The notes under the pieces were generated by a model, which did no database searches, was not told where the DNA came from, and saw only the letters and a list, made by a program, of their open reading frames with translations. DNA of 64,000 nt from Solidesulfovibrio aerotolerans (GTDB lineage: Bacteria > Desulfobacterota > Desulfovibrionia > Desulfovibrionales > Desulfovibrionaceae). Positions 4,932-26,324 of the stretch are shown piece after piece. Positions within the stretch are counted from its first letter, which is position 1. Each line of letters starts with the position of its first letter. The stretch lies in NCBI RefSeq assembly GCF_009856865.1, contig NZ_WVUD01000006.1:1-64000 (forward strand), read 5' to 3'. Both the position numbers and the translations under genes were made by a program.

Positions 4932-4956
4932 CCAGGTTGGAAGGTGGAAAGGGTAT

Positions 4957-5580: not shown

Positions 5581-5637
5581 GTGTCGCCTTCTCTGGTTGT
5601 GGCCCCTGCGGTCCGGGGCTCAATCTTGATTTAAATT

Positions 5638-5668
5638 TAATGATGATTTTTATGATTTATCATTTTAT
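5638..5668. promoter_or_regulatory. AT-rich promoter/operator candidate for the TetR-MFP-RND operon
   Basis: Directly upstream of the TetR gene the composition drops to almost pure A/T. The inverted pair AATGAT and ATCATT is separated by about 15 bases. Such a low-GC island in a high-GC genome is typical of a promoter, and the inverted repeat is a plausible site for the TetR dimer. No precise -35/-10 call is made. Confidence 0.35.
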
Positions 5669-5930
5669 AAGTCAAGGCATTTCGCGCCGCCATTTAACAA
5701 GATGAAATTGCAGTGTTTTCTAGGTGCTCATGGTGCGGTGGGCCGTCTCGAGAGCTTCACGAGCCTTGATGCGGCGGAGGGGGGCAGCAGTTTGGGAGCC
5801 AGGATGTCGCGGATGGGGCGCGCGCCTGTCGCGTGGTGGTCTGGATGGCAACGGGCCAAACGCCCCCCAGGATGCAGACACCAAGGAGAGGGGATTCGTA
5901 CCATGCCGACAGTATCATTTTTAACGGGAA

Positions 5931-10203: not shown

Positions 10204-10350
10204 GTAAGCGCCTGACAAGGCGCATCCTGTCAGGTCGAGAGGAAAGCGTCAGAAGCTCAGGCAGAGATGATCAGGGAGCAGGGATCAAGATATTGGGGGA
10301 GGAGGGCCTTGCGTTGGGCATCGGTCGTTGCCGCCGGCAAGTGCTCAAAG
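10204..10350 (-). mobile_element. Second IS66-family right-end remnant
   Basis: The segment begins with GTAAGCGCC, a classical IS66 terminal sequence, and runs through the transposase stop at 10257 into codons for FEHLPAATTDAQRKALLP. It matches the remnant at 8862-9030 in order and spacing. Similarity to that copy breaks sharply at about 10350, where integrase sequence begins. It is therefore a terminal fragment of an IS66 copy joined to unrelated DNA. Confidence 0.65.
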
Positions 10351-10838
10351 ATGCGCCACTCGGCCTTGTCGAAGTCGACTTCCGACCATTTGGCATGGCG
10401 CAGCTCGCCAGGGCGCACGGACAGCATCGGGGCCAGCCGCAGCACGCTCATGGTCACAAAATCGAAGCGGCGAATGGTCCGGTCGGCATGGGAGGCGGTC
10501 CAGTTCTCCTTGAACTTTGAGAACCATTCCCGCGCCACCTTCTCAAAGCTCACGGCGTCGGCGGCGATTCCGGCTTTATCTTCTTTGCGTAGGGCGCTCG
10601 GGCAAATTCCGTTGGCGATGAGCTTTCGGGCGTCGTCGCGTCGCTCTCGGGCGTCCTTGAGGGACACGTCAGGATAGACGCCGAGGGAGATTTTTTTTTC
10701 CTTGCCCCCAAGTCGATACTTGAGACGCCACCACTTGCCCCCAGCAGTGGCAACTTCCAGATAGAGGCCGCCGCCATCGAACAATTTGATGGCGGCGGCT
10801 CCCGGTTTAGCGTTGCGGACAGCGGTATCTGTGAGCAT
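10257..10838 (-). pseudogene. Chimeric, broken P4-type integrase fused to an IS66 transposase tail
   Basis: The N-terminal part (from ATG 10838, MLTDTAVRNAKPG) is the DUF4102-type arm-binding domain of P4-like tyrosine integrases (KISLGVYPDVSLKDARERRD). The core-binding region is cut short after HADRTIRRFD and jumps to a catalytic-domain piece (SVRPGELRHAKWSEVDFDKAEWRI). Then at about 10350 the frame passes into the IS66 TnpC tail (FEHLPAATTDAQ). The catalytic His-x-x-Arg and Tyr are absent, so it cannot recombine DNA. A longer in-frame start at 10916 is possible but adds non-conserved residues. It marks an older integrated island whose integrase was destroyed by deletion and IS66 insertion. 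Confidence 0.75.
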
Positions 10839-10931
10839 GTGGGGCAACTTCTGGCGGAAATTTTCATGTCCAGCCTTGTTGCCCCAATTGTTGCCCCCAG
10901 AGTGGGCGGATGTCACCGGACCTAAAAAGAC

Positions 10932-10959: not shown

Positions 10960-11156
10960 ATGCTGAAATCTTTGGTCTTTTGGACTTTATCGGATCGTGT
11001 TGGAAGGTCTTTTGGGGTGGGGACAACCACATTGGTTCTTTAACATGCTTGTATGTTTTATAAAGATTGATTCTTGTTTTGGCGGTTATACGTAAAGTTA
11101 TACGGTTTTTGAGAGCGCTGGAAAATATTTTCCGACTCCACCTTGTCCGCCATGGG

Positions 11157-11167
11157 CGGGGGGGGGG
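11157..11167. repeat. Run of eleven G residues
   Basis: A homopolymeric G11 tract lies about 75 bases upstream of the decayed nuclease gene. Such tracts slip during replication and are also a common place for sequencing error. Confidence 0.6.
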
Positions 11168-11242
11168 GGCGCTCGACCTCCCCGGCTTGGCATAAGCGCT
11201 TATCTCGCCTGCGCCCGAAACCGATATGCACGAGGACCAGCA

Positions 11243-11715
11243 ATGCCCCGCCACCTGTCCGCACTCCTCTGGCTGGTCCTGACTCCTGGGTCTTCTCCTG
11301 TCCCCGCCTCAAATCCACGCAGTGGACTCCTGGCAGGGGAAGGTGGTGGGTGTCGTGGACGGCGCGACCCTGGGTGGCCAAGTCCGATGGTCAGGTCGAG
11401 CGTGTCAGGCTCTTCGCAATCGGCGTCCCCGCAGCCGGGCAAGCCGCAGCCGATGCGGCGCAAAGGCGGACGGCGTCATGGTGCCGCCAATGGGGGGACG
11501 TGGCCGAAGTCCGGCCGATGGGACATGACCGCGAAGGCCGGGTGGTCGCCCGGGTCCTCGTAGGCCGGGAAGACGTGGCCGAGGTGCTCACGAAGGCTTG
11601 CCTTGCCATTGTGGACATGCGGCGTTGCCGAGAGCAGTTCACCCCGGAATGCGTCTCCTGGAACGCCTGGGAGCTTCAATGTCGAGATGAAAAAAAGGGG
11701 CTCTGGGCACAATGA
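11243..11715 (+). pseudogene. Decayed thermonuclease-like (SNase) gene
   Basis: Three consecutive frame pieces rebuild a secreted staphylococcal-nuclease homologue: a signal-like start (MPRHLSALLWLVL), then LLLSPPQIHAVDSWQGKVVGVVDGATL in a second frame, then DGQVERVRLFAIGVPAAGQ to the end LWAQ in a third. The breaks fall near 11285 and 11371. The Arg of VERVRLF and the Arg of DREGRVVA, at the usual catalytic positions, remain. The position normally occupied by Glu in the CPExGQ motif reads PAAGQ, so activity would be lost even without the frameshifts. It overlaps the following PLD gene by ATGA, showing the pair was once an operon. Confidence 0.7.
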
Positions 11716-12249
11716 CCAGTCAAATCGTAAGGAAGGGCATCCTCGCCGCGCTCCTCTTTGTCCTGCCGGTGTTTCCTTCCTTCGCCTACGACCTGACCCT
11801 CAATGACACCCCCGTCAGCCTGTATTTCAGCCCCAGAGGCGGCGGGCAAAAGGCCATCATTGAGTGCCCTCGGGCAGGCGAAGGAAAGCGTCTACGTCCA
11901 GGCCTACAGCTTCACGAGTGCCCCTCATTGCCAAGGCCCTGGTGGACGCGGCCAAGCGCGGGTGAAGGTCGAAGCCCTTCTGGACAAGAGCCAGCGGAGG
12001 GCGACCTACACAGGGGCGTCCTTCCTGAAAAACGCGGGTATCCCGGTCTACATCGACGTGGCCCACGCCATCGCCCACAACAAGGTCATGGTGGTCGACG
12101 GGCAGACGGTCGTGACGGGGAGCTTCAACTTTACGAAAGCGGCCGAGGAGCGAAACGCCGAGAATCTGCTCATCATTAAGGACAAGGGGCTGGCCCGGCT
12201 TTACATGGAAAACTGGGAGCGGCACAAAGATCATTCGGAGGATTATTGA
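11712..12249 (+). pseudogene. Decayed phospholipase-D-superfamily endonuclease
   Basis: The start at 11712 encodes a signal peptide (ILAALLFVLPVFPSFA) and the opening of a single-domain PLD nuclease (VSLYFSPRGGGQKAII). The frame then breaks. ALGQAKESVYVQAYSFTSAP continues in a second frame, IAKALVDAAKRG in a third, and VKVEALLDKSQ onward returns to the second. The catalytic HKD motif is intact as HNKVMVVDGQTVVTGSFNFT near 12070-12135. Three or more single-base losses make it a pseudogene. Nuc-like secreted PLD nucleases next to thermonucleases occur on mobile elements; the two decayed together here. Confidence 0.75.
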
Positions 12250-12565: not shown

Positions 12566-14257
12566 TTAGCGCAACAGCAGCACCATGACCAGCCCCCACA
12601 TGGTCAGCAGGGTGTTGCTGATGGCATAGGGCACGGTATAGCCAAGCATGGGGATGGTGCTTTGGGCTGCGTCGTTGACCATGCCGACCGAGGCCGTGCT
12701 GGTGCGCGCCCCGCCGCAGCAGCCAAGGTTTAGGGCCGGGTCGATTTTAAAGACATGCTTGGCGAGAAGCGGGGCCAGGAGCATGGGCACGGCCGTGGCC
12801 ACGGCCCCCCAGAAAAAAAGGCCCCAGCCGGCGGACTTGAGGCCGGCGATAAAGCTTGGTCCCGAGGAGATACCGACCACGGCGATGAAGGTATTAAGGC
12901 CCACGGAATTCATGAACCACAGCGACGGGGCCGGGATGCGACCGAAGGTGGGATGCACCGAGCGCAGCCAGCCGGCCACAAGGCCCAGGATCAGCGCCCC
13001 GCCGGAGGAGGACAGGGTGATGGGGATGCCGGAAACCGGCACCGTGACCGACCCCAGGACGCCGCCCAGGGCAATGGCCAGCCCGACAAAGACCATGTCG
13101 GTCATGTTCGAGGGCCGGTCCTCGTAACCGAGCTGGGCGGCCAGCCGGTCCAGGTGGTTGGTGGTGCCGGACACCTTCAGGATGTCGCCCCGGTAGAGCT
13201 TGGTCTGGGCCAGGATCGGGATGTCGATGCCAGCGGCTCCCCGGGTGATCTTGCGCAGGTGCACTCCCCGGGCAAAGGGTTCCTTGGCCAGATCCAGAAG
13301 CGTGCGACCGTTGACGCTTTTTTTGGTGATAACGAGATGGACCGATTCCAGGGGAATGGACAGCAGTTCACGATCCTCCACTTCCACAGCCAGCTTTTCC
13401 ATGATGCCGACCAGGCTCTCGTGGTGCCCGGACACGGCCACCACGTCCCCGGCCCCAAGAACAGTGTCCGGCGTAAATTCGACGATCCGCCCTCCCTGGC
13501 GCAGCCGCTCCACAAAGACCGGCGGATTGGCCAGCTTTGATTCCACGGCTGCAACCGTCAGCCCGTCCAGGCGGCCGCCTTTTTCGACGGCATAGGCCCG
13601 GGCGTCGATGGCGTGCCAGGCCGAATGGATGCCGCCGGCCGGCGTGCCATGGGACAGTTTGGCCTCGTAGTCCCGGCAGGCCTTGGGCAGGTCGATGCCC
13701 AGGAGCTTGGGTCCGAGAAAGGCCAGAATCCAGCCCGTGCCCAGGGTGCCGAAGAAATAGCAGACCGCATAAGCCACCGGGATTTCCTTCAGCAGGGCCG
13801 ACGCCTTGTCCGGCGGCAGCCCGAGCTTGCCGATGGCGTCTGTGGACAGGCCCATGGCGGCCGAAATGGTCTGCGCCCCGGCGAACAGCCCGGCCCCGAA
13901 ACCGATGTCAAAGCCGCCAAGGCGCACACAGACGTAGGTCACTCCCAGACACAGCAGGCAGATGACCACGGCGAAAAGAGCCTGCGGCCCGCCGTCCGAG
14001 GCCAGCCCGCGCACGAACTGCGGCCCCACGCCGTAGCCGATGGCAAACAGGAACAGGATGAAAAAGACGGCCTTGACGTTCTCCGAGACCGGGATATCGA
14101 GCTGGCCGACCAGGACGCCGGTTAAAAGGACGCCGGTCACAGCACCCAGGCTGAAGTTCTTAAATTTAAGGCCGCCAACCCAATAGCCCAGGCCAAGGGT
14201 CAGGAAGATAGCCAGCTCGCTGTGCTGGCGCAGGGTGGTCACGATCCATTCAAGCAT
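12566..14257 (-). CDS. aspT: AspT-type aspartate/alanine antiporter
   Basis: From ATG 14257 (AGG 6 bases upstream) the protein has 563 residues, close to the 543 of Tetragenococcus AspT. Two blocks of membrane helices, each opening with a GLGYWVGGLKFKNFSLGAV-like segment or its C-terminal counterpart (VGLAIALGGVLGSVTVPVSG), flank a soluble centre. That centre holds two TrkA-C-like domains (about residues 205-375), the AAEx/Asp-Al_Ex architecture. The family exchanges aspartate for alanine across the inner membrane; one net negative charge enters per turnover. It lies 101 bases after aspartate 4-decarboxylase, its classical partner. Other AAEx members carry succinate or other dicarboxylates, but the neighbour makes aspartate the best guess. 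Confidence 0.88.
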   Translation of the reverse strand: MLEWIVTTLRQHSELAIFLTLGLGYWVGGLKFKNFSLGAVTGVLLTGVLVGQLDIPVSENVKAVFFILFLFAIGYGVGPQFVRGLASDGGPQALFAVVICLLCLGVTYVCVRLGGFDIGFGAGLFAGAQTISAAMGLSTDAIGKLGLPPDKASALLKEIPVAYAVCYFFGTLGTGWILAFLGPKLLGIDLPKACRDYEAKLSHGTPAGGIHSAWHAIDARAYAVEKGGRLDGLTVAAVESKLANPPVFVERLRQGGRIVEFTPDTVLGAGDVVAVSGHHESLVGIMEKLAVEVEDRELLSIPLESVHLVITKKSVNGRTLLDLAKEPFARGVHLRKITRGAAGIDIPILAQTKLYRGDILKVSGTTNHLDRLAAQLGYEDRPSNMTDMVFVGLAIALGGVLGSVTVPVSGIPITLSSSGGALILGLVAGWLRSVHPTFGRIPAPSLWFMNSVGLNTFIAVVGISSGPSFIAGLKSAGWGLFFWGAVATAVPMLLAPLLAKHVFKIDPALNLGCCGGARTSTASVGMVNDAAQSTIPMLGYTVPYAISNTLLTMWGLVMVLLLR

Positions 14258-14358
14258 AGAATACCTCATGGGGCGCCTGGGCGGCCGGTTGGCACAATCA
14301 AAGGCGATTGCGCAAACCGGTCGCACGTTGTCGGCAGGGCCGCGTCAATCCGGGCCGG

Positions 14359-15960
14359 TTAGCGGGAAGCGTCCCACTCGGCTTTGTAGTCGGCCAGCAG
14401 CTCGCTGATGGCCTTGCCGATCTTGCCGTATTCCGGCGTGTCCAGGTTGGCCTGGGAGACCCGCACCGACATGGTGGGACCAGCAAACCCGCCGCCGTCC
14501 ATGAGGACCACGTCCTTGTCCGCCGCCAGCCGCCAGACAAAGTCGATGGGTTCGTGGGCGTCGCGCAGCCAGTCGTCGAAGTCCTGGCCGTAGCGGGCTA
14601 CGGCCAGTTTGTGGATGTCGATGGTGGTGTAGTAGCGGGCAAAGGAGTCGTCGGTGTCCGGGGCGGGGATGCCGATGCCGTCAAAAAGCGCTTCGTAGCG
14701 TTCCTTGACCAGTCCCTGGGCCTCCTGCTTGTAGAGGTGAAACTCCGTGTCGAGCAGTTCGGCCAGGGCGAAAAAGACCATCATGGCCTGCTGGGGCGTG
14801 GACAGGCCGGCGGTGTGATTAAGGGCCACGGCCCGGCTGTCGGCCACCAGCCGGTCGATGAGTTTAAGGCCGTCAGGGTTGGTGGCAATGGACTCGTAGC
14901 GTGTATGTAGGGCGGCGCGCTTGTCGGCCGGCAGGGTGGCGATCATGGCGTCAAGGACGTTGTCCTGGTACAGGCCGATGACCCCGAGCCGCCAGCCGGT
15001 GCAGCCGAAATATTTGGAGAAGGAATAGACCAGGATGGTGTTGCGCGGGGCAATGGCGGCCAGGGAGCGGAAGCCGTTGACGAAGGTGCCGTAGACGTCG
15101 TCGGTGAGGATGATGAGATCCTGGCGTTTGGTGCGTACCAGTTCGGCAATGGTTTGCAGGGAGGCTTCGGTGAGGCTCACCGACGGCGGATTGGACGGGT
15201 TGACTAGGAAGAAGGCCTTGACCGCCGGGTCGTGGAGTTTTTCCAGTTCCGCGTCCGGGAACTGCCAGCCCTTTTCCTCGTCCATGGCCACATCCACGCT
15301 GACCAGGCCGTAGTCGGCCAGGGGCGGAATTTCCAGGTAGGGCGAAAAGATGGGGGTGGCGATGGCCAGCTTGTCGCCAGGGTTGAGCAGTCCGTTTTCC
15401 TTAAGCGTATTGAAGATGTAGCTTATGGCCGCCGTGCCGCCTTCGACCAGGAAGAGGTCCATGGTCCCGGCCGGCGGGCGGCTGTCGAACATGGTCTCGT
15501 TGAGATAGGCCTGGATGACTTTTTCGGTCAGGGGCAGCACCCGGTCCGGGGTGGGGTAGTGGTCGCCTATGATGGCGTCGGCCAGTTCGCCCACAAAGGC
15601 GTCGCCGTCAAGAGAGAGCTTTCCGGTGGCGTAGGCGTAGGCATCGGCCAGGAACTGGGCGCCGTTGTGGTCGCCGTGGGCCTGACAAAAGGCCAGCAGG
15701 CGCGCCCCGCTGCCGGCTGCGGCCGGCGCGCCGGCCATGCCCGGCCGGCTCATGACCCGGCGGGCCTCGGCCAGGGCGAAGCTGCCAAACAGGAAATAGG
15801 CCTCGCGCGGGGCGGTGGCGATCCAGTTGGGATTGCCGCGCCCGGCATTAATCATCATTTTTTCATGGGCCGTCTGGGCCAGATCGGCCAGCTTGTTTTT
15901 CAGTTCAAAGGGGCTGAGGCTCTCGTAGCGTTTTTCCTCGTCGCGCTGTCCATCCTGCAT
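14359..15960 (-). CDS. aspD: Aspartate 4-decarboxylase (bifunctional with aspartate aminotransferase)
   Basis: At 533 residues the protein is much longer than AspC aminotransferases (about 400) and equals AspD of Tetragenococcus. Fold-type I PLP residues are visible: NPSNPP near residue 255, TDDVYGTF near 286, and the PLP lysine in YSFSKYFGCTGWR at Lys316. It should convert L-aspartate to L-alanine and CO2 in the cytoplasm, consuming a proton. ATG 15960 has GGAG nine bases upstream. It is in line with asparaginase (93 bases upstream) and AspT (downstream), so the substrate supply and product exit are encoded together. Confidence 0.92.
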   Translation of the reverse strand: MQDGQRDEEKRYESLSPFELKNKLADLAQTAHEKMMINAGRGNPNWIATAPREAYFLFGSFALAEARRVMSRPGMAGAPAAAGSGARLLAFCQAHGDHNGAQFLADAYAYATGKLSLDGDAFVGELADAIIGDHYPTPDRVLPLTEKVIQAYLNETMFDSRPPAGTMDLFLVEGGTAAISYIFNTLKENGLLNPGDKLAIATPIFSPYLEIPPLADYGLVSVDVAMDEEKGWQFPDAELEKLHDPAVKAFFLVNPSNPPSVSLTEASLQTIAELVRTKRQDLIILTDDVYGTFVNGFRSLAAIAPRNTILVYSFSKYFGCTGWRLGVIGLYQDNVLDAMIATLPADKRAALHTRYESIATNPDGLKLIDRLVADSRAVALNHTAGLSTPQQAMMVFFALAELLDTEFHLYKQEAQGLVKERYEALFDGIGIPAPDTDDSFARYYTTIDIHKLAVARYGQDFDDWLRDAHEPIDFVWRLAADKDVVLMDGGGFAGPTMSVRVSQANLDTPEYGKIGKAISELLADYKAEWDASR

Positions 15961-16053
15961 GGGATCATCTCCGTGTCGGGGTTGATTCGTTGGGAGCGAG
16001 GGGAACCTGCCGGTCGATGCGCTGGCCGCCGGGCCGGCGGCACCTTACGGCGC

Positions 16054-17166
16054 TTAAAAAAGAGCCTTGAGTTTGGCTGCGTCCGGGCCGTAGCCGGCCA
16101 GCCCCAGCATGAGGAGCAGGCGGGCTTTTTGCCCTGGCAGATCCCCGGCCAGGATGCAGCCGTCTTTTTCGAGCATCAGGCCGCCGCCCAGGTCGCCGTA
16201 TACCGGCTCCACAGACCCGTAGTAGACCGTGGTGGAAATGACCACGACCACGCCTTTGGACAGGGCGTATTTGACGGCCCCGTAGACGGCTTCGTTGACG
16301 TTGCCGGAGCCGACGCCGTTAATGACAATTCCCTTGGCCCCGTCGTCCACGGCGTGGCGCACGAAGGCACCGTCGTCGCCGGCATAGGTGGCCAGAAAGG
16401 CGACCTTGGGCAGGGTTTCGGGCAGGGGCAAGCGGACCCGGCGCAGCCGGTCGTTAAAGCGCGAGACCGTGCCGCTGGTGATGTAACCCAGATACCCCTT
16501 TTCGCCGGACTCAAAGGTCTGCACATTGGTTGTCTGGGTTTTGCGCACGTCGCGGGCGGAGTTGATGTACCCGTTTAGGGTGACGGTGACGCCCCAGTCG
16601 CGGCTATTGGGTGAGCAGACCTGGAGCACGGCGTTGTACAGGTTGCCTGGGCCGTCAGGAAACGGGCTTGACGCGTCGTTCATGGCCCCTGTGAAGACGA
16701 CGGGCTTATCACTTGTAAGCGTGGCGTCGAGGAAAAACGAGCCTTCGGCCATGGTGTCGGTGCCATGGGTTACGACCACGCCGCCCACCTCGGGCCGGTT
16801 CAGGGCCGCGTCCACGGCCCGACTCAGACCCGCCCAACGCTCCGGAGTCATTTGCGAACTGTCGATATTGGAATAGTTAACCACTTCGATGCGGGCCAGG
16901 GTGGCCAGTCCCGGTACGGCGGCGATGAGATCGTCGCCGGAAACGGTCGGCACCGCCCCGCCCGTTTTGGGGTCGGTCTTTTCCGCAATGGTGCCGCCGG
17001 TCGAAACCACCACCACCAGGGGCAGGGCCTTGGCTCCGTTTTTGGCGGCCGGGGCGGAGCCCTGGGGAGCCGCCGCCCCGGCTGTTATAGCAGCTCCTGG
17101 CCCCAGGGTCAGGGTCAGAAACAGGACCGTCAGGATTGCCAGAATCGGGGTGCGCGCCATGGGCAT
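16054..17166 (-). CDS. ansB: Periplasmic type II L-asparaginase
   Basis: The 370-residue product has a signal peptide (ILAILTVLFLTLTLGPGAAITAGA) and then a complete asparaginase/glutaminase fold. The first catalytic Thr is in STGGTIA (Thr59), the second set in THGTDTMAEG (Thr136, Asp137), and the Lys in DVRKTQTTN (Lys209). It hydrolyses asparagine to aspartate and ammonia in the periplasm. AAGGAG precedes ATG 17166. The place between a porin gene and AspD/AspT suggests that asparagine enters through the outer membrane and is made into aspartate for the exchanger. Confidence 0.93.
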   Translation of the reverse strand: MPMARTPILAILTVLFLTLTLGPGAAITAGAAAPQGSAPAAKNGAKALPLVVVVSTGGTIAEKTDPKTGGAVPTVSGDDLIAAVPGLATLARIEVVNYSNIDSSQMTPERWAGLSRAVDAALNRPEVGGVVVTHGTDTMAEGSFFLDATLTSDKPVVFTGAMNDASSPFPDGPGNLYNAVLQVCSPNSRDWGVTVTLNGYINSARDVRKTQTTNVQTFESGEKGYLGYITSGTVSRFNDRLRRVRLPLPETLPKVAFLATYAGDDGAFVRHAVDDGAKGIVINGVGSGNVNEAVYGAVKYALSKGVVVVISTTVYYGSVEPVYGDLGGGLMLEKDGCILAGDLPGQKARLLLMLGLAGYGPDAAKLKALF

Positions 17167-17244
17167 GGGCCGTCTCCTTGGGTTGCGGGTTGGTCTTAGA
17201 GCCGGGCCGGCCTGTGTTCGCGGCGGGCCGTCCGTCAGGACTTC

Positions 17245-18675
17245 TTAAAACGTATAGATAAGCCCCACGGCTCCCTGCCAGGCATTGCCGGCCTTATCCG
17301 CCATGTGCTGTCCCCAGATGCTTTTGCGAAACCCCTGGCCCTTGGCCCAGCCGGTTTCCAGCACCAGCTTCAGTGCCTCGTTTATGGCATAGGTATGTTC
17401 GCTGGCCACGGAGAGGGCGGATTCGCCCTGGGCCAGATCCTGGCCCATCGTCACGTAATTGCCGGGGCCGCCGGAAACGGCCATGGCCTGGCGCAGTCCG
17501 GCCGGAGAATTGGTGCCGGTGGCCACGGAGAAGGCCACCAGGGAGGTCAGTCTGGGGAGCAGGCCGATGGCATTGAAGTTGAGCGTCAGCCCCATGCTGC
17601 CCTGGGGATTGGTGTTCATGGAGGCGTTGGTGAGATCCTGGTTGGCGCTGAAAAGAAACGACCCGGTCGGTCCCCAGGTGGTGACGATATACGGCAGGCG
17701 CTCGGAGCCATTGGCGAGGCTGGCGTCTTCGCCGGCGCCGTACCAGCCCATGAGCTGGGGCGTGACCCAGGTGAGTCCGGTATATTCCAGGGCCAGATCG
17801 GCAAACCAGCCCTGGCGGTGGTTGCGGGAGGCATCGGCGAAGCCGGCGTTGCCGTATGCGACGTCGGCGGAGATCCGAATCGGGTCCAGGGCGTTGGCGG
17901 TCAGGGTCGCGCCGGCCCACACGGCCGCGTTCTGGTTATTATGATAACCGGTCGGGGTCAAAAACGAACCGGCCGACACCATGTTCTGGCTCATGCCGCT
18001 TGGCAGGTCGGCATCCTTGCCAAGCACGCCAACCGCGCCCCAGGGGGTGACGGCGAGGCCCGGGACGGTCAGGTTCAGACTGGCGAAGGCCAGATCGAAC
18101 TCGTCACCGACCTGGGTGGTGGTGGTGTCGTACGTCCGGTTGGTGTCCACCAGCCGGCTAAATCCGACGGTGCCGGAAAGGGTCTCTGCCATAATCGGGC
18201 CGGAAACCACCATGGCGGCGGCGTCGCTGTTGCCCGAGTCCGTGGACAGGACCACAGAATCGTAGAAAATCGTGGAATGGGGCAGGGACAGAGGCTGGTA
18301 GCCGGCCGTGACAGTCACCTTCGTGTCCGGCACGGTCAGTTGCAGATAGCACTGGTAGGGCTGCACGGCCGGAACCGGATTGGCGGCCGTTAAGTAGTTC
18401 GTGCCCCAGGTCTGGTTCTGGACGCGAAGGCCCAAGCGAAAGGCAAGGTGGTCGCCGGCTGCCAAATCCATGTGAAGCCGCAGACGCTGCCAGATGTCGA
18501 AAGTATCGGCGGTCTGGCTGCCATCAGTGCTTTGCCCGGTGTAGTTCTGGTTGGAAAAAAAAGTCCCCTGGACGCGGAAATCGCCGTAGAGTTTGACCGA
18601 GGTGGCCGTGGCCGTGGTGCAAACGGCCAGTGATGCCAGCAAAATGCCCACGATGGAGAGAACCATTCGAATCAT
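17245..18675 (-). CDS. Outer-membrane homotrimeric porin (Desulfovibrio type)
   Basis: The 476-residue protein has a signal sequence (IVGILLASLAVCTTATAT) followed at once by SVKLYGDFRVQGTFFSNQNY, the opening common to Desulfovibrio trimeric porins. It continues as amphipathic strands and ends in GLIYTF with the terminal Phe needed for barrel assembly. It should form a diffusion channel for small solutes. As the first gene of the asparaginase/AspD/AspT series (78 bases upstream of asparaginase) it may be tuned to amino-acid entry, which is inference; general porins also occur alone. Confidence 0.85.
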   Translation of the reverse strand: MIRMVLSIVGILLASLAVCTTATATSVKLYGDFRVQGTFFSNQNYTGQSTDGSQTADTFDIWQRLRLHMDLAAGDHLAFRLGLRVQNQTWGTNYLTAANPVPAVQPYQCYLQLTVPDTKVTVTAGYQPLSLPHSTIFYDSVVLSTDSGNSDAAAMVVSGPIMAETLSGTVGFSRLVDTNRTYDTTTTQVGDEFDLAFASLNLTVPGLAVTPWGAVGVLGKDADLPSGMSQNMVSAGSFLTPTGYHNNQNAAVWAGATLTANALDPIRISADVAYGNAGFADASRNHRQGWFADLALEYTGLTWVTPQLMGWYGAGEDASLANGSERLPYIVTTWGPTGSFLFSANQDLTNASMNTNPQGSMGLTLNFNAIGLLPRLTSLVAFSVATGTNSPAGLRQAMAVSGGPGNYVTMGQDLAQGESALSVASEHTYAINEALKLVLETGWAKGQGFRKSIWGQHMADKAGNAWQGAVGLIYTF

Positions 18676-18840
18676 TGGCGTTCCTTTACAGCGGGCTGTG
18701 GCAGATTGGGGACAACAGGCAGGGGAACTCCGACAATAAACGGTCCAACGCCGGGGCAGCCGGGCGCAGCGGCGGTGCGGATTGTTCAGGTCTCATCAAA
18801 ACAACGGCCCTGCTGCCAATTCCTGTTGCTGCATGACAAG

Positions 18841-18905
18841 CCCAGGCCTCGGCTGCACTACAGGCATGTTACAATTTTTCTTGTGCAGCATAAAACAGTC
18901 CTGGG
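18841..18905. promoter_or_regulatory. Nested inverted repeats upstream of the porin cluster
   Basis: CCCAGG at 18841-18846 pairs with CCTGGG at 18900-18905, and inside these GCTGCAC at 18852-18858 pairs with GTGCAGC at 18883-18889. The enclosed loop is A/T-rich. The structure lies about 170 bases upstream of the first gene of the asparagine cluster, where a promoter and operator are expected. 18676-19047 otherwise holds no gene. Confidence 0.35.
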
Positions 18906-19047
18906 CAAAAATATAGAGCAATTTTTACCCAGACCATTACGACCGATCCAGCTAAAAAAGATAGTCTGAGCCTGTTTACAATGAAGTCACTTGGTCTATC
19001 GACCCAAACTCCGCCCCCGGCACTCGCCTGATCCGCCAGCATATGTC

Positions 19048-19176: not shown

Positions 19177-19537
19177 TCAGGTGGAGGGAAGTGTCGGCGA
19201 ACCCTTTCGCACCCGGGTCGGCCGGCCGCGAACCATAAGGGGGGGCATGTTTTGGGCAAAAAACGAAGGCCAGGCGTAAACCCTTAAAAACTGGCCGTAA
19301 AATCGTCTTTCGCTCTGAGGATGGAGAACGTCCCGGATTGTTCCGAAGAACGCAGGGAAGGGGCGTCTGGAGAGTAGGCGAAGGTGGGTGAGGCGGGTTT
19401 TCTTTCGCGGCAGGATAGGGAAGCTATTTTGGAAGCGTTCGGGGCCGGTTCAATTTTGGCCAGGGGTGTGCGGCCGGTTTCTTTGCTGCGAAGCCAGGAA
19501 GCTCTTGGAAACTTCCATTTCCACGGAGCCCCTGGCA

Positions 19538-19655
19538 AAGTTATGTGCGAGCGCAATCTTACCTTGAGATGGGCGTGCTCGCCCTCTTTTTGGCTGGAGT
19601 CTGGCTTCCGGCCTCCCCGAGCCTGGGAAGCTCGACGAACTCCGCTTCGATTGGG
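19538..19655 (-). repeat. IS-like fragment, copy A (possible IS66 accessory-gene 3' end)
   Basis: About 115 bases are nearly identical to 24418-24535 and in the same orientation. On the minus strand both copies read AEFVELPRL(G/W)EAGSQTPAK and stop after TPISR. This resembles the tail of an IS66 TnpA-type accessory protein, though that name is tentative. The wider region 19284-19700 gives only short mutually shifted frames, so this is debris. The copies flank the sensor-kinase operon. Confidence 0.55.
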
Positions 19656-19758
19656 CTTGCCTCAATACGTACAAGATCCAGAGGAGGCGAACCGTCACCG
19701 TGCTGGGTGATGCTGTAGCGGCCGTTTTTCAATCACGAGCTCTGACTCTAGCCTGGAT

Positions 19759-20919
19759 TCAGAATTTCGCTACCCCGTGGGCGGGTACATCGCGCCAGCG
19801 GTCCTTATAGTATAGGACGGTCTTGAGTTCGGCGAAAAAGGCCTCCACCACGGCCGGATCAAAGGCCGTGCCTGCACCCTGGCGGATGATGCGCTGGCAG
19901 GCATCCTCGGGAAAGGCGGGCTTATATGGGCGATGGTTGCCAACGGCGTCGTAGACGTCCACCACCGAGACTATGCGGGCCTCCAGGGCAATGGACTCCC
20001 CGGGCAGCCCCTTGGGATAGCCGGTCCCGTCCCAGCGTTCGTGGTGGGACAGGGCGATGGTCTGGGCCAGGGGCATGAGCCGCTGTTCCGCGCCCCGGGC
20101 GGGCAGTGGACCGGCGATGGTGCAGACCACGGCCTCGGTCTGGCCCTCGGCCAGGGGCTGGCTGAGGATCATGCAGCCGTATTCGCAGTGGCGCTGCATG
20201 ACGGCCCATTCCGCAGGGGTAAGCGGACCGGGCTTGAGCAGGATGTGGTCGGGCACGCCGATCTTGCCGATGTCGTGCAGGGGGGCGGCCTCACGCAACA
20301 TCTCTACCCGAGCTGGGTCCAGGCCCAGGCTGAGGCCCAGGGCGGCGCACATCTCGCCCACCCGGATGACGTGGCGGCCGGTCTCGTTGTCGCGGTATTC
20401 CGCCGCCTTGCCCAGGCTGTAGAGAATCTGGCGGCGGGTGTCGCGCAGTTCGTCCGTGCGCGCATCCACCAGGGCTTCCAGGTTGTGCTGGTAGTTGCGG
20501 TTTTCCCGCAGGAGACGGGCGCGCTCCAAGACCCGTGACAGGGCGTGCTCCACCACGGCAAAGCGCGACACCGGTTTGGTGATGTAGTCCCAGGCCCCCA
20601 GACGGATGGCCTCCACGGCCTTGTCCACGGCTCCGACGCCAGAGACCACGATCAGGGGCAGTTCCGGGGCGCGGACCCGGACCCGCTCGATAAAGGCGTA
20701 GCCGTCCATGACCGGCATGTTGAGGTCCACCATGACCACGTCCGGGGCGAAGCGTTCCAGGACCTCCAAACCCTCGGCCCCGTTGGCGGCCAGGGCGGTC
20801 AGGCAGTTCATGTCTTCCAGATAATCGGCCAGGGTGCGGCGCAGCATGACTTCGTCGTCAATGACCAGCACCCGCACCGCCTGCCCGGGAGGCAGGCCCA
20901 GGGCCTTAGCGAAGGGCAT
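19759..20919 (-). CDS. Response regulator with HD-GYP c-di-GMP phosphodiesterase domain
   Basis: ATG 20919 overlaps the stop of the upstream receiver gene by 14 bases; the longer frame is out-of-frame reading of that gene. The 386-residue product has a receiver domain (VLVIDDEVMLRRTLADYL, phospho-acceptor Asp in VVMVDLNMPVMDG, Lys in YITKPV) and then an HD-GYP domain with HDIGKIGVPDHILLKPG and HHERWDGTGYPKGLPG. The GYP variant matches c-di-GMP-hydrolysing enzymes. Between RHCEYGCMIL and the HHE motif there is an extra stretch of about 20 residues (TEAVVCTIAGPLPARGAEQR) not usual in the family. It should lower c-di-GMP on phosphorylation by the kinase encoded upstream. Confidence 0.9.
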   Translation of the reverse strand: MPFAKALGLPPGQAVRVLVIDDEVMLRRTLADYLEDMNCLTALAANGAEGLEVLERFAPDVVMVDLNMPVMDGYAFIERVRVRAPELPLIVVSGVGAVDKAVEAIRLGAWDYITKPVSRFAVVEHALSRVLERARLLRENRNYQHNLEALVDARTDELRDTRRQILYSLGKAAEYRDNETGRHVIRVGEMCAALGLSLGLDPARVEMLREAAPLHDIGKIGVPDHILLKPGPLTPAEWAVMQRHCEYGCMILSQPLAEGQTEAVVCTIAGPLPARGAEQRLMPLAQTIALSHHERWDGTGYPKGLPGESIALEARIVSVVDVYDAVGNHRPYKPAFPEDACQRIIRQGAGTAFDPAVVEAFFAELKTVLYYKDRWRDVPAHGVAKF

Positions 20920-21286
20920 TGTCAAGGGCACGGACGATCGCCGCCATGTCAGCCACGGGCTTGTAGAGCACGCCCCGGAAGCCGGGGATGTCCTGGATGG
21001 TCGCCTTGGGGAGCTGCTCCTCGGGGGAGCCGGTATGGATGAGAAAGCGCAGGGCCGGGTACAGGGCCTGGGCCTGGAGCATGAACTCGATGCCGCTTGA
21101 ACCCGGCAGACGCAGGTCCACCAGACACACGTCAACGGCCTGACGCCGCAGCAGGTCCAGGCCGGACTCGGCATCCTCCGCCACGAACGCCTCGAAGCGC
21201 CCTTCGTCTTCCAGGTAATCCTGGGCGGCCAGGCCCAGCAGGGCCTCGTCGTCGATAATCAGCACGCGGATGCGCTCGGAAGTCAT
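20906..21286 (-). CDS. Single-domain response regulator (CheY-like)
   Basis: ATG 21286 lies 8 bases after the kinase stop and gives 126 residues, just a receiver domain. The acidic pair IIDDEALLG, phospho-acceptor Asp in VCLVDLRLPGSSGIE, Thr in LIHTGSPEEQ and Lys in VLYKPV are all present. There is no output domain. It probably relays phosphate between the kinase and the HD-GYP regulator or competes for it; all three genes overlap or nearly touch. Confidence 0.88.
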   Translation of the reverse strand: MTSERIRVLIIDDEALLGLAAQDYLEDEGRFEAFVAEDAESGLDLLRRQAVDVCLVDLRLPGSSGIEFMLQAQALYPALRFLIHTGSPEEQLPKATIQDIPGFRGVLYKPVADMAAIVRALDNALR

Positions 21287-21294
21287 GGCTGTGC

Positions 21295-24237
21295 CTACCC
21301 CAGGGGAATCTCGATGGCAAACGTGGTTCCCTGGCCGGGACGCGACGCCACGGAGATTCTCCCCTTGTGCTTCTGGGCGATGATGAAAAACCCCACAGAC
21401 AGGCCAAGGCCTGTGCCTTCGCCCTGGGGCTTGGTGGTAAAAAACGGCTCGAACACGCGGCGGCGGGTGGCCTCGTCCATGCCCGGCCCGTTGTCCCGGA
21501 TCTCGATGCGGGCGGCGTCGGAGTCGTGGAGGGTGACCAGACGCAGGGTGGGCGTGTCGGGCCGCTGGCCACGGTCCATCATGGCCTGGGCCGCGTTCTT
21601 GATGATGTTGAGCAGCACCTGGACGATCTCCGTCTCCATGCACTCCACCGGCGGCAGGGTCGTATCGTAATCACGTTCGATACGGATACCCTTGAAGTCG
21701 TAGCGCTTTTTGAGGTCGTAATCATTGGCGGCCAGATCCACGGCCATGTCGAGGAGGGCGTTTATGTTGCAGGAGGCGCGCAGGGACTGGCTGCTGCGGC
21801 TGAAATCGAGCATAGTGCGGATGATCCGGGCGGCCCGGTCGCCGGCCTCCTGGATGCCGCGCAGGTATTCGTCGATGTTGCGGGCGCGCACGTAGGCGGC
21901 GATGGAATCAATTTCCAAGCCGAGCCGCCGGGCCGCCTCCAGATTGCCCGGCAGGGTAGGCGATAACCGGCGCTCCATGTTCTGCACCGACTGCAAGATG
22001 ATGCCTAGGGGGTTGTTGAGTTCGTGGGCCATGCCCGCGGCCAGCCCGCCCACGCTCATCATCTTTTCAGTCTGGATCATCAGCTCCTGCATCTTCTTGT
22101 GCTCGGTAATGTCTACGATGACGCCGATCAGCCCGCCTGACGCGCCACCGGACAGGTGAAATCCGGTGACCGAGTATAGGGTCTGGTGCACCGCGCCGTC
22201 GGCCAGGGGGATGGGCATTTCCTTGTGCACCGCCTCGGCCCCGGCAATAACGGCCTCGTCCTCGGCATGATAGGCGGCCCGGTCCTCGGCCGGCAGATAG
22301 TCCAGCTCCAGCACCGTCTTGCCGACGAGATCCTGCCGGCGCACCCCGAACCAGTCCTCATAGGCCTTGTTAAAGCCCAGGAACCGGCAGTCCGTGCCCT
22401 TGTAAAAGACCGCGTAGGGGATGGTGTCCAGGAGCGCCTGCTGGAAGGCCAGCTGGTCGGCCAGTTGCATCTCCAGCCGCTTGCGCCCGGTGATGTCCCG
22501 GAAAATGCCCTCCACGCCAAGCACCCGACCCTCGCCGTCGCGGTAATAGGCACTGGTGGTGGAAACCAGCACCGGCCCTCCGGTTTTGTCCTTGAGCGTG
22601 ACCTCGTAGTCCAGGACCCGGCCCTCGACCGCGATGCGCTCCAGAAGGGCGTGGCGTTTGTCCGTTTCCATCCAGAAATCCGCAGCCGACCGGCCGAGCA
22701 GTTCCTCGGCCGAATCGTAGCCGAGCTGGCGCGGCGTGGAGGGGCTGAGCATCACCAGCCGGCCTTCGCGGTCGGTGCGGTAGTACATATCCTGGATGTT
22801 CTCAATGACGGAACGGTACCGGGCCTCGCTTTCGCGCAGAGCCTCCTCGGCCTGCCGGCGCTCGGCCACGTCCTCGACGACGCCGTTGATGCAGGCCGGT
22901 TCGCCTGCGGCGTCATACTGGAGGGAGGCGTTGATGATGGCCGGAAACGCCTGACCGTCCCGACGCCCCAGGAGCGCTTCCAGGCGCAGACCCTGGGACG
23001 AGACGGCCAGGGCGCTGCGGATATCCCGGGAGCCTTGGGGCCGCAGATAGCTGCTAAGCGGCAGATGTTCGAGGCCGCCGAGCATGGCCTCGGGGCTGGC
23101 GAACCCGTGCATGCGGGCCAGGGCAGCGTTGACCTCCTGTAGGCCGTCGCCGTAGGTGCAGCGGAAGATGCCGATGGGTGCATGATCGAAGATGGCCCGG
23201 TATTTTTCTTCGCTGGCCCGCAGGGCCTGCTGGAAGGCCAGGCTGCGGTCCAGTTCGGCCGCCAGTTCCCGGGCCTTGGTCTGGTAGGCCCGCCGCAGCG
23301 CCCGGGCGCGGTAGAGCAGGACGCCAAGCAGCACCACGGTGACCGAGAGCAGCCCGATGGCGGCGTACAGCAGCCCGGTCAGGGTGCGTATCTGGCGCTC
23401 CTGGGGATGGACCCATTTGTCCAGCAAGGCGCGCCGACGCTCCTGGGGAATGTTGGCCAGGGCTTTCTGGATGGCGGAAAAAAGCAGCGGCCGGTCGCTG
23501 CGCACAGCCATGGACAAGGCCGTCTCGTGCTCCGTGGTCGCGGCCACCCGCAGATTGCGCAGGCCTTCCTGCTCGATGTAATACGAGGCCACGCCAACGT
23601 TCTCCACAAAGGCATCAAGATCGCCGAACGCGGTCTGGCGCAGGCCTTCCTGGATGTTGTTCACCGGCACGATGGTGAACGAGTCCGGGTAATTGCTCTT
23701 GAGGAAAGCGTGGGAAACGTAGCCGTTGACCACTCCCACGCGCAGGCCGTGGAGATCGGCCAATCCGTCGATGGACTTGAAATTCTTCTGGGTGAACACC
23801 ACCGTGGGCAGAAGCACGTAGGGGTCGGTAAACAGCAGGTACTGGGCGCGCTGGGCCGTGTAGGCCATAGCCGGGGCCATGTCGGCCCGACGCTCTTTGA
23901 GACTTTCTAGCAGCGCCGGCCAGTCGTGCTCGGCTTCGGCCCGGATGCTGACGCCCAAGCTGTCCTCGATCTCTTTGATGAAATCGGCGGCCAGCCCCGA
24001 GAATCGGCCGTCCTCGCCCAGGAACTCAAACGGCGGGTATTTCCAGTCGTAGACGAGGCGGATCTGCTTGAGCTCGGCCAGAGCGGCCCGCTCCTCGGGA
24101 GAAAGGATATCCGCCGCACGGGCAGCCGCGGCCAAGCCGAGCAGCACGGCCAGCCCCCAGGCCAGACACAGCGGCCCCAAGCCCCAGGCTCGTCCGTGAT
24201 TCCGTGCCAGCATCGCCCCTCCCGGCCTGGACTGCAC
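21295..24237 (-). CDS. Hybrid-input sensor histidine kinase with periplasmic amino-acid-binding domain and PAS domains
   Basis: The 980-residue protein starts with a signal sequence (about 1-41) and a bacterial solute-binding type 3 domain (about 45-275; KQIRLVYDWKYPPFEFLGEDG), so the sensor faces the periplasm. A single membrane helix follows (about 285-308), then three PAS/PAC units (about 345-735). The kinase core has GMAHELNNPLG (phospho-His) and an ATPase domain with NIIKNAAQAM, DNGPGMD and GTGLGLSVG. Solute-binding type 3 domains usually bind polar amino acids, which fits the asparagine/aspartate cluster 2.6 kb away; the link is inference. The first gene of a three-gene operon, it lies inside IS-flanked DNA. 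Confidence 0.93.
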   Translation of the reverse strand: MQSRPGGAMLARNHGRAWGLGPLCLAWGLAVLLGLAAAARAADILSPEERAALAELKQIRLVYDWKYPPFEFLGEDGRFSGLAADFIKEIEDSLGVSIRAEAEHDWPALLESLKERRADMAPAMAYTAQRAQYLLFTDPYVLLPTVVFTQKNFKSIDGLADLHGLRVGVVNGYVSHAFLKSNYPDSFTIVPVNNIQEGLRQTAFGDLDAFVENVGVASYYIEQEGLRNLRVAATTEHETALSMAVRSDRPLLFSAIQKALANIPQERRRALLDKWVHPQERQIRTLTGLLYAAIGLLSVTVVLLGVLLYRARALRRAYQTKARELAAELDRSLAFQQALRASEEKYRAIFDHAPIGIFRCTYGDGLQEVNAALARMHGFASPEAMLGGLEHLPLSSYLRPQGSRDIRSALAVSSQGLRLEALLGRRDGQAFPAIINASLQYDAAGEPACINGVVEDVAERRQAEEALRESEARYRSVIENIQDMYYRTDREGRLVMLSPSTPRQLGYDSAEELLGRSAADFWMETDKRHALLERIAVEGRVLDYEVTLKDKTGGPVLVSTTSAYYRDGEGRVLGVEGIFRDITGRKRLEMQLADQLAFQQALLDTIPYAVFYKGTDCRFLGFNKAYEDWFGVRRQDLVGKTVLELDYLPAEDRAAYHAEDEAVIAGAEAVHKEMPIPLADGAVHQTLYSVTGFHLSGGASGGLIGVIVDITEHKKMQELMIQTEKMMSVGGLAAGMAHELNNPLGIILQSVQNMERRLSPTLPGNLEAARRLGLEIDSIAAYVRARNIDEYLRGIQEAGDRAARIIRTMLDFSRSSQSLRASCNINALLDMAVDLAANDYDLKKRYDFKGIRIERDYDTTLPPVECMETEIVQVLLNIIKNAAQAMMDRGQRPDTPTLRLVTLHDSDAARIEIRDNGPGMDEATRRRVFEPFFTTKPQGEGTGLGLSVGFFIIAQKHKGRISVASRPGQGTTFAIEIPLG

Positions 24238-24417
24238 CAGCTAAAATACACCACTTTTTAAATATCGCACAGACGGCGCAGGCTGTCAAAAATTCACCAG
24301 TCCTTGGTGTCGCGAGCACATGATATGACCGGCTTAGGTATCGCATAATCCGACCGACGACGAAGATTCTCCGCGAGGGAGGGCAGCCCTGGGGATATCG
24401 GCGGCTCGCAGTGGAGC

Positions 24418-24535
24418 CCTGGCAAAGATCCGTGCGAGCGCCACCTTACCTTGAGATGGGCGTGCTCGCCCTCTCTTTGGCTGGCGTCTGGCTTCCGGCC
24501 TCCCAGAGCCTGGGAAGCTCGACGAACTCCGCTTC
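24418..24535 (-). repeat. IS-like fragment, copy B (direct repeat of 19538-19655)
   Basis: Nearly identical to copy A and in the same orientation; on the minus strand it reads IEAEFVELPRLWEAGSQTPAKERASTPISR in pieces and then a stop. Upstream coding (KSNGLSGGIVVNIIRHQPQA) extends this copy slightly further than copy A. The region 24238-24691 holds no intact gene. Confidence 0.55.
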
Positions 24536-24691
24536 GATGGCCTGCGGCTGGTGCCTGATGATATTGACCACGATGCCACCACTGAGGCCGTTGCTCTTGG
24601 CCCTGGCCATCTGGAACGCCATGAGGCCGCAAGACGTCATTGGCTCGGACGTCCGGTTGACTCCTGAACGCGAAGCGGGCTTCAACCAGGA

Positions 24692-24919: not shown

Positions 24920-25155
24920 TGGCTGACCAGGATTTGCTCAACGACGACGACAGGCTCTTGAGGGCCACAGATGCAAGACGGCTCCTGGGTCAAATGTCCA
25001 AAACGACGTTCTATCGGAACATCGAACGGGGGATCATCCCGGAGCCCCGTTACATCGGAGGCACGTCCGTCTGGCGGCTTGGCGACCTTCGTGCCGTGGT
25101 CAACCAGCTCCCCGAGAAACCCTACACCGCCGACGCCTTGAGCGTGTCCAGGTAG
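24919..25155 (+). CDS. AlpA-like excisionase/transcriptional regulator
   Basis: From ATG 24919 the product has 78 residues with a MerR/AlpA-type winged helix: LLRATDARRLLGQMSKTTFYRNIERGIIPEPRYIGGTSVWRLGDLRAVV. The pattern of an HTH with TFYR and a later R-x-W-R-x-GDL is that of AlpA proteins, which activate or direct integrase excision on P4-type islands. Its 3' end overlaps the convergent integrase gene by about 34 bases. The combination with the integrase beside ssrA is a typical island recombination module. Confidence 0.75.
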   Translation: MADQDLLNDDDRLLRATDARRLLGQMSKTTFYRNIERGIIPEPRYIGGTSVWRLGDLRAVVNQLPEKPYTADALSVSR

Positions 25156-26324
25156 TCAGCCCATGTCTGCATCAACTCCCGACGCTCTGCCATGTATTGG
25201 GCGCGGTTATATACGGCTCGTATTTTATCCGCGCCCTTGTGGGCAAGCTGGGCTTCTATCACGTCCGGCCTGTGTCCGAGTTCATTGAGCAGGGTTGAGG
25301 CCATGGCCCGGAAGCCGTGGGCGGTCATCTGGTCCTTGCCATAGCCCATAATCCGCAGCGCCGTGTTGACGCCGTTTTCAGAAAGCGGCCGGTCCTTTCC
25401 TCGGGGGCCTGGGAACACAAACTTTCCGCCCCCGGTCAACGGCTGAAGCCCCCTGAGAACGCCAACAGCTTGCCCCGACAGCGGGACGCGATGTTCGACC
25501 CGCGTTTTCATCTTGGGAGCAGGAATCGTCCATTCTGACGCTTCAAAATCAATCTCTTCCCATTCCGCATGTCGTATCTCCCCAGGCCGGCAAAACACGA
25601 GCGCCGAGAAGGCGAGAGCGGCCCGGACGACGGCAGACCCCTTGTAATCGTCGATGGCCAGCATGAGAGCACCGACCTCTTTTGGCTTCGTCAGGGCGGC
25701 GTGTTGTCCCTTTGAAAATGGGACCAGGGCACCGCGTAAATCCCGGCAGGGGTCAGATGCAACAACTCCGGTTGCGACTCCATACCGAAATATCTGCGAG
25801 CAGAACGCCAGTACGCGACTGGCCGTCTCAAACGCCCGGCGTTCTTCGATACGTCGCAGGAGGGACAGCACATCCATCGGGCCAATCTCGGCTATTGGCC
25901 GTTCTCCGATGTGCGGATAAACGTCAAGCCGCAGGCGACCCTCAACGGTGATCGTGTAGCTTTCAGCCCAGACGTTCCGTTGATTTGCAACGTACTCCAG
26001 GGCCACGGCCTTGAATGTCACAGCGCCTTCGCTACCCGCCCCATCCCCATCCGCCCGGGCCTGCTTCTTCGCCTGCCCCGGGTCGGCTCCTTCGCGCAGC
26101 ATCTTGCGGGATGCATCCCGCAAGACTCGCGCATCCTTTAGGCTGACATCTGGCCAAGCGCCCAGACTGAGCCTCTTTTCCTTCCCGTCGAATTTGTACT
26201 TCCAACGCCAATGCTTCCCCCCGGCAGCGCTCAGCTCCAAGTACAGCCCCTGACTGTCGTGGAACCGCTCTATCTTGCCGGAAGGCTTTATGGTCTTGAT
26301 CTTGATTTCGGTCAGTAGGGGCAA
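25122..26324 (-). CDS. P4-type tyrosine integrase (ssrA-associated)
   Basis: The 400-residue product is full-length: an arm-binding DUF4102 domain (KRLSLGAWPDVSLKDARVLRD), a SAM-like core-binding domain, and a catalytic domain with Arg in FCRPGEIRHAEW, HGFRAMASTLLNELG, the LAHK His and a Tyr in AVYNRAQY. All catalytic residues are visible, so it may be active. TTG 26324 with GAGG upstream is the best start. It ends toward the island interior and starts about 165 bases from the 3' end of ssrA, where such integrases insert their element. Confidence 0.92.
   Translation of the reverse strand: MPLLTEIKIKTIKPSGKIERFHDSQGLYLELSAAGGKHWRWKYKFDGKEKRLSLGAWPDVSLKDARVLRDASRKMLREGADPGQAKKQARADGDGAGSEGAVTFKAVALEYVANQRNVWAESYTITVEGRLRLDVYPHIGERPIAEIGPMDVLSLLRRIEERRAFETASRVLAFCSQIFRYGVATGVVASDPCRDLRGALVPFSKGQHAALTKPKEVGALMLAIDDYKGSAVVRAALAFSALVFCRPGEIRHAEWEEIDFEASEWTIPAPKMKTRVEHRVPLSGQAVGVLRGLQPLTGGGKFVFPGPRGKDRPLSENGVNTALRIMGYGKDQMTAHGFRAMASTLLNELGHRPDVIEAQLAHKGADKIRAVYNRAQYMAERRELMQTWADYLDTLKASAV

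Follow-up and report, generated by a model that had tools for sequence, protein, structure and literature searches.

The locus described here lies in a 64,000-nucleotide (nt) stretch of Solidesulfovibrio aerotolerans DNA (contig NZ_WVUD01000006.1, positions 1 to 64,000; the window), where four genes running in one direction on the minus strand encode an outer-membrane porin, an L-asparaginase-type amidohydrolase, an aspartate 4-decarboxylase (AspD) and an aspartate-alanine antiporter (AspT) (Table 1). An earlier reading of the DNA letters (the original prediction) saw in them a candidate energy module of a sulfate reducer. The genes, their places and their shared direction are confirmed by reading frames and family matches, their four identities by Pfam and NCBIfam, and the sulfate-reducing host by a profile search of its own genome, which finds dsrA at 629 bits (cut-off 392.85). 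We think it probable that the four genes make up one horizontally mobile metabolic cassette that would turn asparagine into alanine and yield proton-motive force.

Table 1. Genes of the locus and the region upstream of them, by position in the window (aa, amino acids; PLP, pyridoxal phosphate).
Feature	Position	Strand	Remarks
Porin, first gene	17245-18675	minus	476 aa; NF033939 outer-membrane homotrimeric type; signal-like N terminus MIRMVLSIVGILLASLAVCTTATA
Exported L-asparaginase-type amidohydrolase (predicted)	16054-17166	minus	370 aa; PF00710 and PF17763
Aspartate 4-decarboxylase AspD	14359-15960	minus	533 aa; TIGR03801; PLP Lys316
Aspartate-alanine antiporter AspT	12566-14257	minus	563 aa from ATG 14257; TIGR03802
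AT-rich region with imperfect palindrome 18900-18933	18676-18940	minus	Upstream of porin; hairpin from terminator scan

The four genes and their products

From porin to AspT the intergenic gaps measure 78, 93 and 101 nt, a Shine-Dalgarno-like sequence (read by eye) stands before each gene, and a consensus scan of the three gaps found no minus-strand terminator-like site. The AT-rich region upstream of the porin is presumed to be a promoter or operator region. Promoter-like matches around the four genes (3 against 1.4 expected) are close to chance, and one weak match lies inside aspD. AspT could also start at GTG 14326 (586 aa), but we regard the 563-aa reading as the better one because its ATG is preceded by GAGG and matches the AspT start in G036, a genome of another genus (see below).

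AspD reaches 687 bits against its equivalog model (cut-off 435.1) and can be aligned almost end to end with its best solved relatives, the L-aspartate decarboxylases 2zy2 and 3fdd. Lys316, which the original prediction had named as the PLP lysine, is invariant in 15 of 15 aligned AspD sequences and falls on the corresponding lysine of the solved chain 2zy2. Identity to a lactobacillus plasmid AspD is 46%. AspT, at 630.6 bits (equivalog cut-off 546.95), carries two PF06826 stretches that represent the two Asp-Al_Ex halves. A second copy of the cassette in the host genome was considered and rejected: another AspT-family protein (contig 77, L042) is only 27% identical and the window's AspD is the sole match of its level (the other six score 20-48 bits), so that L042 is best seen as a different member of the AAEx family.

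In some AspD homologues the catalytic domain is preceded by a twin-arginine leader (SRRDF or SRREF); seven of them come from the window's own family f1 (L057, L059, L060, L062, L063, L064, L065) and one more is L261. Where compared, they share 42-47% identity with the window AspD. They have no AspT in the stretches read and apparently are exported aspartate decarboxylases, to judge by their leaders; an exported AspD would consume protons outside and therefore could not power the same cycle. Several genomes have two aspT genes for one aspD (L106, at 2230-3918 and 4050-5738; L250; L252; others), hinting at antiporters with different partners, and at L249 a pyridoxal-dependent decarboxylase gene (PF00282, 10329-11717) sits between those for AspD and asparaginase.

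The asparaginase exceeds the cut-offs of PF00710 (198.9 bits) and PF17763 (101.6 bits), and amide hydrolysis would be expected of it. It has Thr59, Thr136, Asp137 and Lys209 and lacks the flexible-loop tyrosine, residues whose catalytic roles we take to be those of Escherichia coli AnsB. Thr, Thr-Asp and Lys stand at the catalytic places in all 22 aligned asparaginases linked to AspD, while the loop tyrosine is replaced in the window enzyme and in 12 of the 21 others. Two types can be told apart: type 1 (13 of 22) has TGGTIAE, a loop without tyrosine and a YGDxGGG insert, and comprises the window, L052, L054, Omnitrophota, L072, L089 and four further loci of the phylum; type 2 (9 of 22) keeps the tyrosine. 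The loop without tyrosine presumably resembles that of the GatD amidotransferase.

In the window enzyme, as in the two copies from the other genus, a hydrophobic N-terminal segment precedes the TGGTI motif (residue 56), which upholds the predicted signal peptide in the form of a signal-like N terminus. The same holds, before the TGGT motif, for 23 of 23 distinct linked asparaginases, the window's included (18 computed by a hydropathy heuristic, not SignalP, and 5 N termini read by eye), and for 3 of 20 full-length control asparaginases (L150, L152, L155; L169 is borderline). The controls, 29 of the 43 asparaginase matches besides the window's less nine short ones (<250 aa), come from the order only, which makes them taxonomically narrower than the linked set, and their distance from AspD was not verified individually. 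An exported asparaginase fits the topology, since AspT, if it imports aspartate, would need deamidation to take place outside the cytoplasm. A PF00710 search of 59 relatives gave a match in 38; within the window's genus the cassette enzyme is the only strong match (195.7 bits), others reaching 75-84 bits and being absent in G115 and G089.

The porin scores 297 bits against NF033939, the Desulfovibrio homotrimeric porin model (cut-off 250), the lowest of eight such porins in its own genome. Among the 30 of 49 matches compared, its identity is 58/56% with the porins of the G036/G068 cassettes and at most 48% with 29 other porin loci from six genomes, including five of the seven other porins of its own genome. 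From these values we take it to be a distinct paralogue that travels with the cassette.

The cassette in related genomes

AspD exceeds its cut-off in 24 of 199 genomes of the order. AspT is adjacent at 12 of these 24 loci, the window's included, and asparaginase and NF033939 porin are present as well at three: the window, G036 and G068. The latter two are among the three genomes of another genus (g4) of the same family, and both have the cassette with the same four genes in the same order, so that the conserved order for which the original prediction suggested a search does occur elsewhere. In all three copies a decarboxylase and the matching precursor/product antiporter are thus encoded side by side. 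In the window's genus, this AspD occurs in 3 of 14 genomes; its neighbours in G115 are hemerythrin, aldo/keto reductase and chemotaxis genes, and the reading frames of G089 follow the same pattern.

At the DNA level the window resembles G036/G068 from 12572 to 18589 only, in the four genes and not outside them. The window has SNase and PLD-like frames on one side and a response regulator/kinase pair on the other, whereas in the g4 copies one flank holds an RND pump and the opposite flank an AMP-binding gene and ABC transporter genes. Because similarity ends at the four genes and the neighbours differ, we regard them as one cassette in two chromosomal settings. AspD is closer to g4 (88/87%) than to the window's own genus (77/76%), while DsrA behaves in the reverse manner: against the three g4 genomes its identity is 87.9/86.3/84.2%, against four of the window's genus 91.3-97.5% (a second DsrA copy in G115 stands at 90.2%). 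It is on account of this reversal that lateral transfer of the cassette appears likely, though hidden paralogy and loss may be an alternative. No clean empty site was obtained: G049 resembles the G036 locus only as far as the adjacent RND gene, and G078 and G172 share only the sensor-kinase pair, plus a 55-base match in G172.

Tyrosine integrases lie on either side of the cassette, one truncated (10257-10916) and one complete (25122-26324), the latter adjoining the 3' end of the transfer-messenger RNA gene ssrA (26489-26847), a usual target of genomic islands. A search of the window by exact 12-mers with ungapped extension found no further copy of the ssrA 3' end that could serve as an att repeat, hence an ssrA island of the simple kind, reaching across the cassette, is not established. 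The adjoining SNase-domain and PLD-like frames occupy 11143-12249, and the PLD gene may be frame-shifted (signal-like start at 11712-12179, body at 11803-12249 in another frame). On the other side, a 122-nt direct repeat of 93% identity (19530-19651 and 24417-24538) surrounds the pair at 19759-24237, a histidine kinase with a solute-binding domain and an HD-type response regulator. The DNA of this pair is 92.6-92.8% identical to G078 and G172, with similarity confined to 19751-24289, and by this pattern the pair also looks like a moving unit.

Asparaginases and porins beside AspD in other bacteria

We also surveyed named genomes by the best 80 of 565 AspD relatives. AspT lies within 3 kb of AspD at 67 of the 80 loci, asparaginase within 4.5 kb at 15, and both at 12; a further 17 loci of the phylum include 6 with asparaginase in the cluster, one of which (L251) has the same sequence as the named L106. 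Asparaginase is thus, as far as gene neighbourhoods tell, a recurrent albeit minority companion of AspD. Gene order varies: aspD-aspT-asparaginase in Omnitrophota and Desulfarculaceae, asparaginase-aspD-aspT at L072 and L257, and aspT-aspD-asparaginase in Acetobacter and Flavobacterium. At three myxobacterial loci (L092, L095, L096) the asparaginase follows AspD and AspT is not nearby. Plasmids take part too: an Acetobacter plasmid is annotated with aspT, decarboxylase, asparaginase and a hypothetical protein, a Kozakia plasmid with decarboxylase and asparaginase, and plasmids of a lactobacillus, Bacteroides, Azospirillum and Acinetobacter with aspT and aspD, no asparaginase being annotated.

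Porins next to asparaginase-bearing clusters are of the NF033939 (L052, L054), OprB (L074, L081, L084), OprD (L106) and Porin_O_P (L128, L134, L148) types, so the porin-flanked trio of AspD, AspT and asparaginase is found in Desulfovibrionaceae, Omnitrophota, another family of the window's phylum and Flavobacterium. Where the cluster lacks asparaginase, the adjacent porins are of the OprB (L079), Porin_O_P (L117, L124, L126) and DcaP (L256, L258) types. By their profile matches the flanking porins belong to different families, by which we do not claim unrelated barrels. The porin count leaves out L118 (Phenol_MetA_deg exactly at cut-off) and L250 (Porin_4 below cut-off).

With three duplicate loci removed, a porin flanks 9 of 22 asparaginase-bearing loci against 6 of 95 others. 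This contrast is inflated by at least eight of the 95 records whose titles suggest no outer membrane (L075, L099, L103, L137, L139, L142, L146, L149); leaving these eight out, it is 9/22 versus 6/87. Moreover, the porin loci are phylogenetically dependent, with three Omnitrophota, three Flavobacterium and two g4 loci making up eight of the nine, and a Fisher test is descriptive only. Of 53 candidate neighbours that passed a loose filter, 30 were compared with curated family models, 28 with those of Pfam and the two g4 porins with NF033939; the unscanned 23 comprise seven in asparaginase-bearing loci (one duplicates a tested one) and 16 elsewhere. Since, in addition, L083 and L249 end at a contig edge after the asparaginase, the porin counts are lower bounds. 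A strict outer-membrane heuristic (5/23 versus 5/97) missed porins later found by Pfam and is not the basis of the tally.

The original prediction took porin and exported asparaginase to complete the known two-gene module into a route from outside to inside. In outline this was right: gene identities, order, signal-like N termini and co-inheritance are all observed, and the route to the cytoplasm is well supported by gene anatomy. The survey of other genomes backs it independently, since the asparaginases linked to AspD look exported and are joined by porins of other families in other lineages. What finds no support is that the extension is particular to the window, because asparaginase-AspD-AspT groups recur in other phyla and on the Acetobacter plasmid. 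By title and abstract start, with subscription journals thinly covered, we found no published description of the four-gene arrangement. With some reserve, we are inclined to see the porin, the exported asparaginase and the AspT/AspD pair as a general module with which diderm bacteria draw energy from turning asparagine into alanine, one that would have been assembled several times and moved between genera, its AspD/AspT core remaining constant while porin family and asparaginase subfamily were exchanged.

A proposed asparagine-to-alanine cycle and its alternatives

Substrates, coupling, exchange stoichiometry and energy gain are what we infer by analogy. Asparagine would cross the outer membrane by diffusion through a dedicated porin and be split in the periplasm by the exported asparaginase into aspartate and ammonium; AspT would bring aspartate(1-) in and take alanine(0) out, and cytoplasmic AspD would decarboxylate aspartate with consumption of one proton. 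Per asparagine, the inward movement of one negative charge and the use of one cytoplasmic proton would amount to about one proton equivalent, at no cost in ATP and with alanine, CO2 and ammonium as waste products. Energy conservation by the cassette should follow the AspT/AspD cycle of Tetragenococcus halophilus, on which this part of the proposal rests. There, AspT is described as catalysing electrogenic Asp(1-)/Ala(0) exchange and, with the decarboxylase, as creating a proton-motive force that is enough for ATP synthesis (PMC9508256).

Several findings weigh against this account. Asparaginase is missing at 21 of the 24 AspD loci of the order and is not near AspD at 65 of the 80 named loci, in the same-genus G115 and G089 the stretches read show AspD but neither AspT nor asparaginase, and the presumed regulatory region lies outside the stretch similar in G036/G068, with no upstream similarity between the window and the two other copies. 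The window asparaginase stays below the cut-off of the type II model TIGR00520 (256.5 bits; cut-off 314.3) and is, by its profile matches, an asparaginase-fold enzyme not filed as type II proper; given this score and the missing loop tyrosine, its amide substrate could differ. AspT shares only 35% identity, in an alignment of 553 positions, with its counterpart on Lactiplantibacillus plasmid pSN35N-4, the AAEx family is reported to include succinate and glutamate exporters as well (PMC9527358), and a purified AspD homologue of Lacticaseibacillus casei is described as weakly active on L-aspartate (PMC6960285).

Could the genes serve nitrogen and carbon scavenging instead? The asparaginase would then act mainly for ammonium, and aspartate would be turned into alanine and then, by alanine dehydrogenase, into pyruvate, which would supply carbon as well as electrons for sulfate reduction, making exchange and energy gain secondary. 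An alanine dehydrogenase is indeed encoded in the host genome (541.9 bits, cut-off 391.85); alanine could therefore stay in the cell, which adds to the points just raised. Mutants of the Desulfovibrio vulgaris asparaginase DVU2242 are reported to lose much of their fitness when asparagine is the only source of nitrogen (PMC10102598), and gut E. coli is said to raise periplasmic AnsB, DcuA and aspartase, although in the same source a mutant unable to degrade asparagine colonised like the wild type (PMC10936423). An antiporter that expels alanine would, however, be a poor choice for a pathway that assimilates it, and AspT and AspD are kept in all three cassette copies. To our minds scavenging is an unlikely alternative to the energy-yielding cassette.

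Rather less likely still, we believe, is that the cassette, while remaining an amidase-decarboxylase-antiporter system, handles glutamine, D-asparagine, an asparagine conjugate or another AspT acid pair in place of free asparagine. The asparaginase subfamily speaks for it, with its missing loop tyrosine, YGDxGGG insert and sub-cut-off type II score. Salmonella FraE, which reportedly acts on fructose-asparagine, may be counted on the same side. So may L. casei AsnA2, which occurs with AsdA and is described as acting on fucosyl-GlcNAc-Asn (PMC6960285). On the other hand, AspD lies so far above the aspartate 4-decarboxylase cut-off that the product of the asparaginase should be aspartate, and the Thr, Thr-Asp and Lys residues conserved in all the aligned enzymes point the same way. 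Acid or pH defence, in which proton use by AspD would outweigh energy, shares its amidase-decarboxylase-antiporter design with the glutaminase-GadB-GadC scheme (PMC12915299). Although sequence cannot separate it from energy gain, the chemistry being identical, no known acid-response gene occurs among the scanned neighbours in the window or G036, and we hold it to be improbable. That the four are chance neighbours with separate regulation and no common function is hardly credible: the gaps of 78-101 nt, the weak promoter-like match inside aspD and the near-chance number of such matches around the genes would leave room for it, but the same order recurs in another genus with similarity confined to the four genes, and the AspD-AspT-asparaginase trio recurs with porins elsewhere.

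If the energy-yielding cassette is real, diderm anaerobes, a sulfate reducer among them, would share a decarboxylation/antiport cycle known from a lactic acid bacterium, and a single mobile cassette would encode every step between outer membrane and cytoplasm; porins of four families would gain substrate guesses. Whether a sulfate reducer may draw energy from asparagine without sulfate thereby becomes a directly testable question.

Among known systems, E. coli resembles the proposed route in that periplasmic asparaginase AnsB and aspartate uptake by DcuA are raised together (PMC10936423). It differs in sending aspartate to aspartase and fumarate or nitrogen metabolism. To our knowledge, the E. 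coli route has neither decarboxylase nor alanine exchange, and its genes do not form one cassette. The glutaminase of Gad acid resistance is not known to be exported. The Gad system, while similar in its logic of amidase, decarboxylase and antiporter (PMC12915299), runs on glutamate/γ-aminobutyrate chemistry. In the alf-2 genes of L. casei (AsnA2 and AsdA), hydrolysis of an asparagine amide likewise feeds an aspartate 4-decarboxylase homologue; there, however, a permease imports glycosyl-asparagine whole, the amidase is a glycosylasparaginase and AspT is not among the genes given in that source (PMC6960285). The groups in Acetobacter, Flavobacterium, Omnitrophota and other families of the phylum combine the same three activities, often with a porin, and differ from the window in porin family and gene order; the Acetobacter (L118) and Flavobacterium asparaginases also keep the loop tyrosine, unlike the window's. 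The T. halophilus cycle is represented in our comparison by the lactobacillus plasmid proteins (35% for AspT, 46% for AspD) and not by its own: the window's AspD and AspT both exceed the NCBIfam equivalog cut-offs, and what sets the window apart is a Gram-negative host and the addition of a putatively exported asparaginase and a porin.

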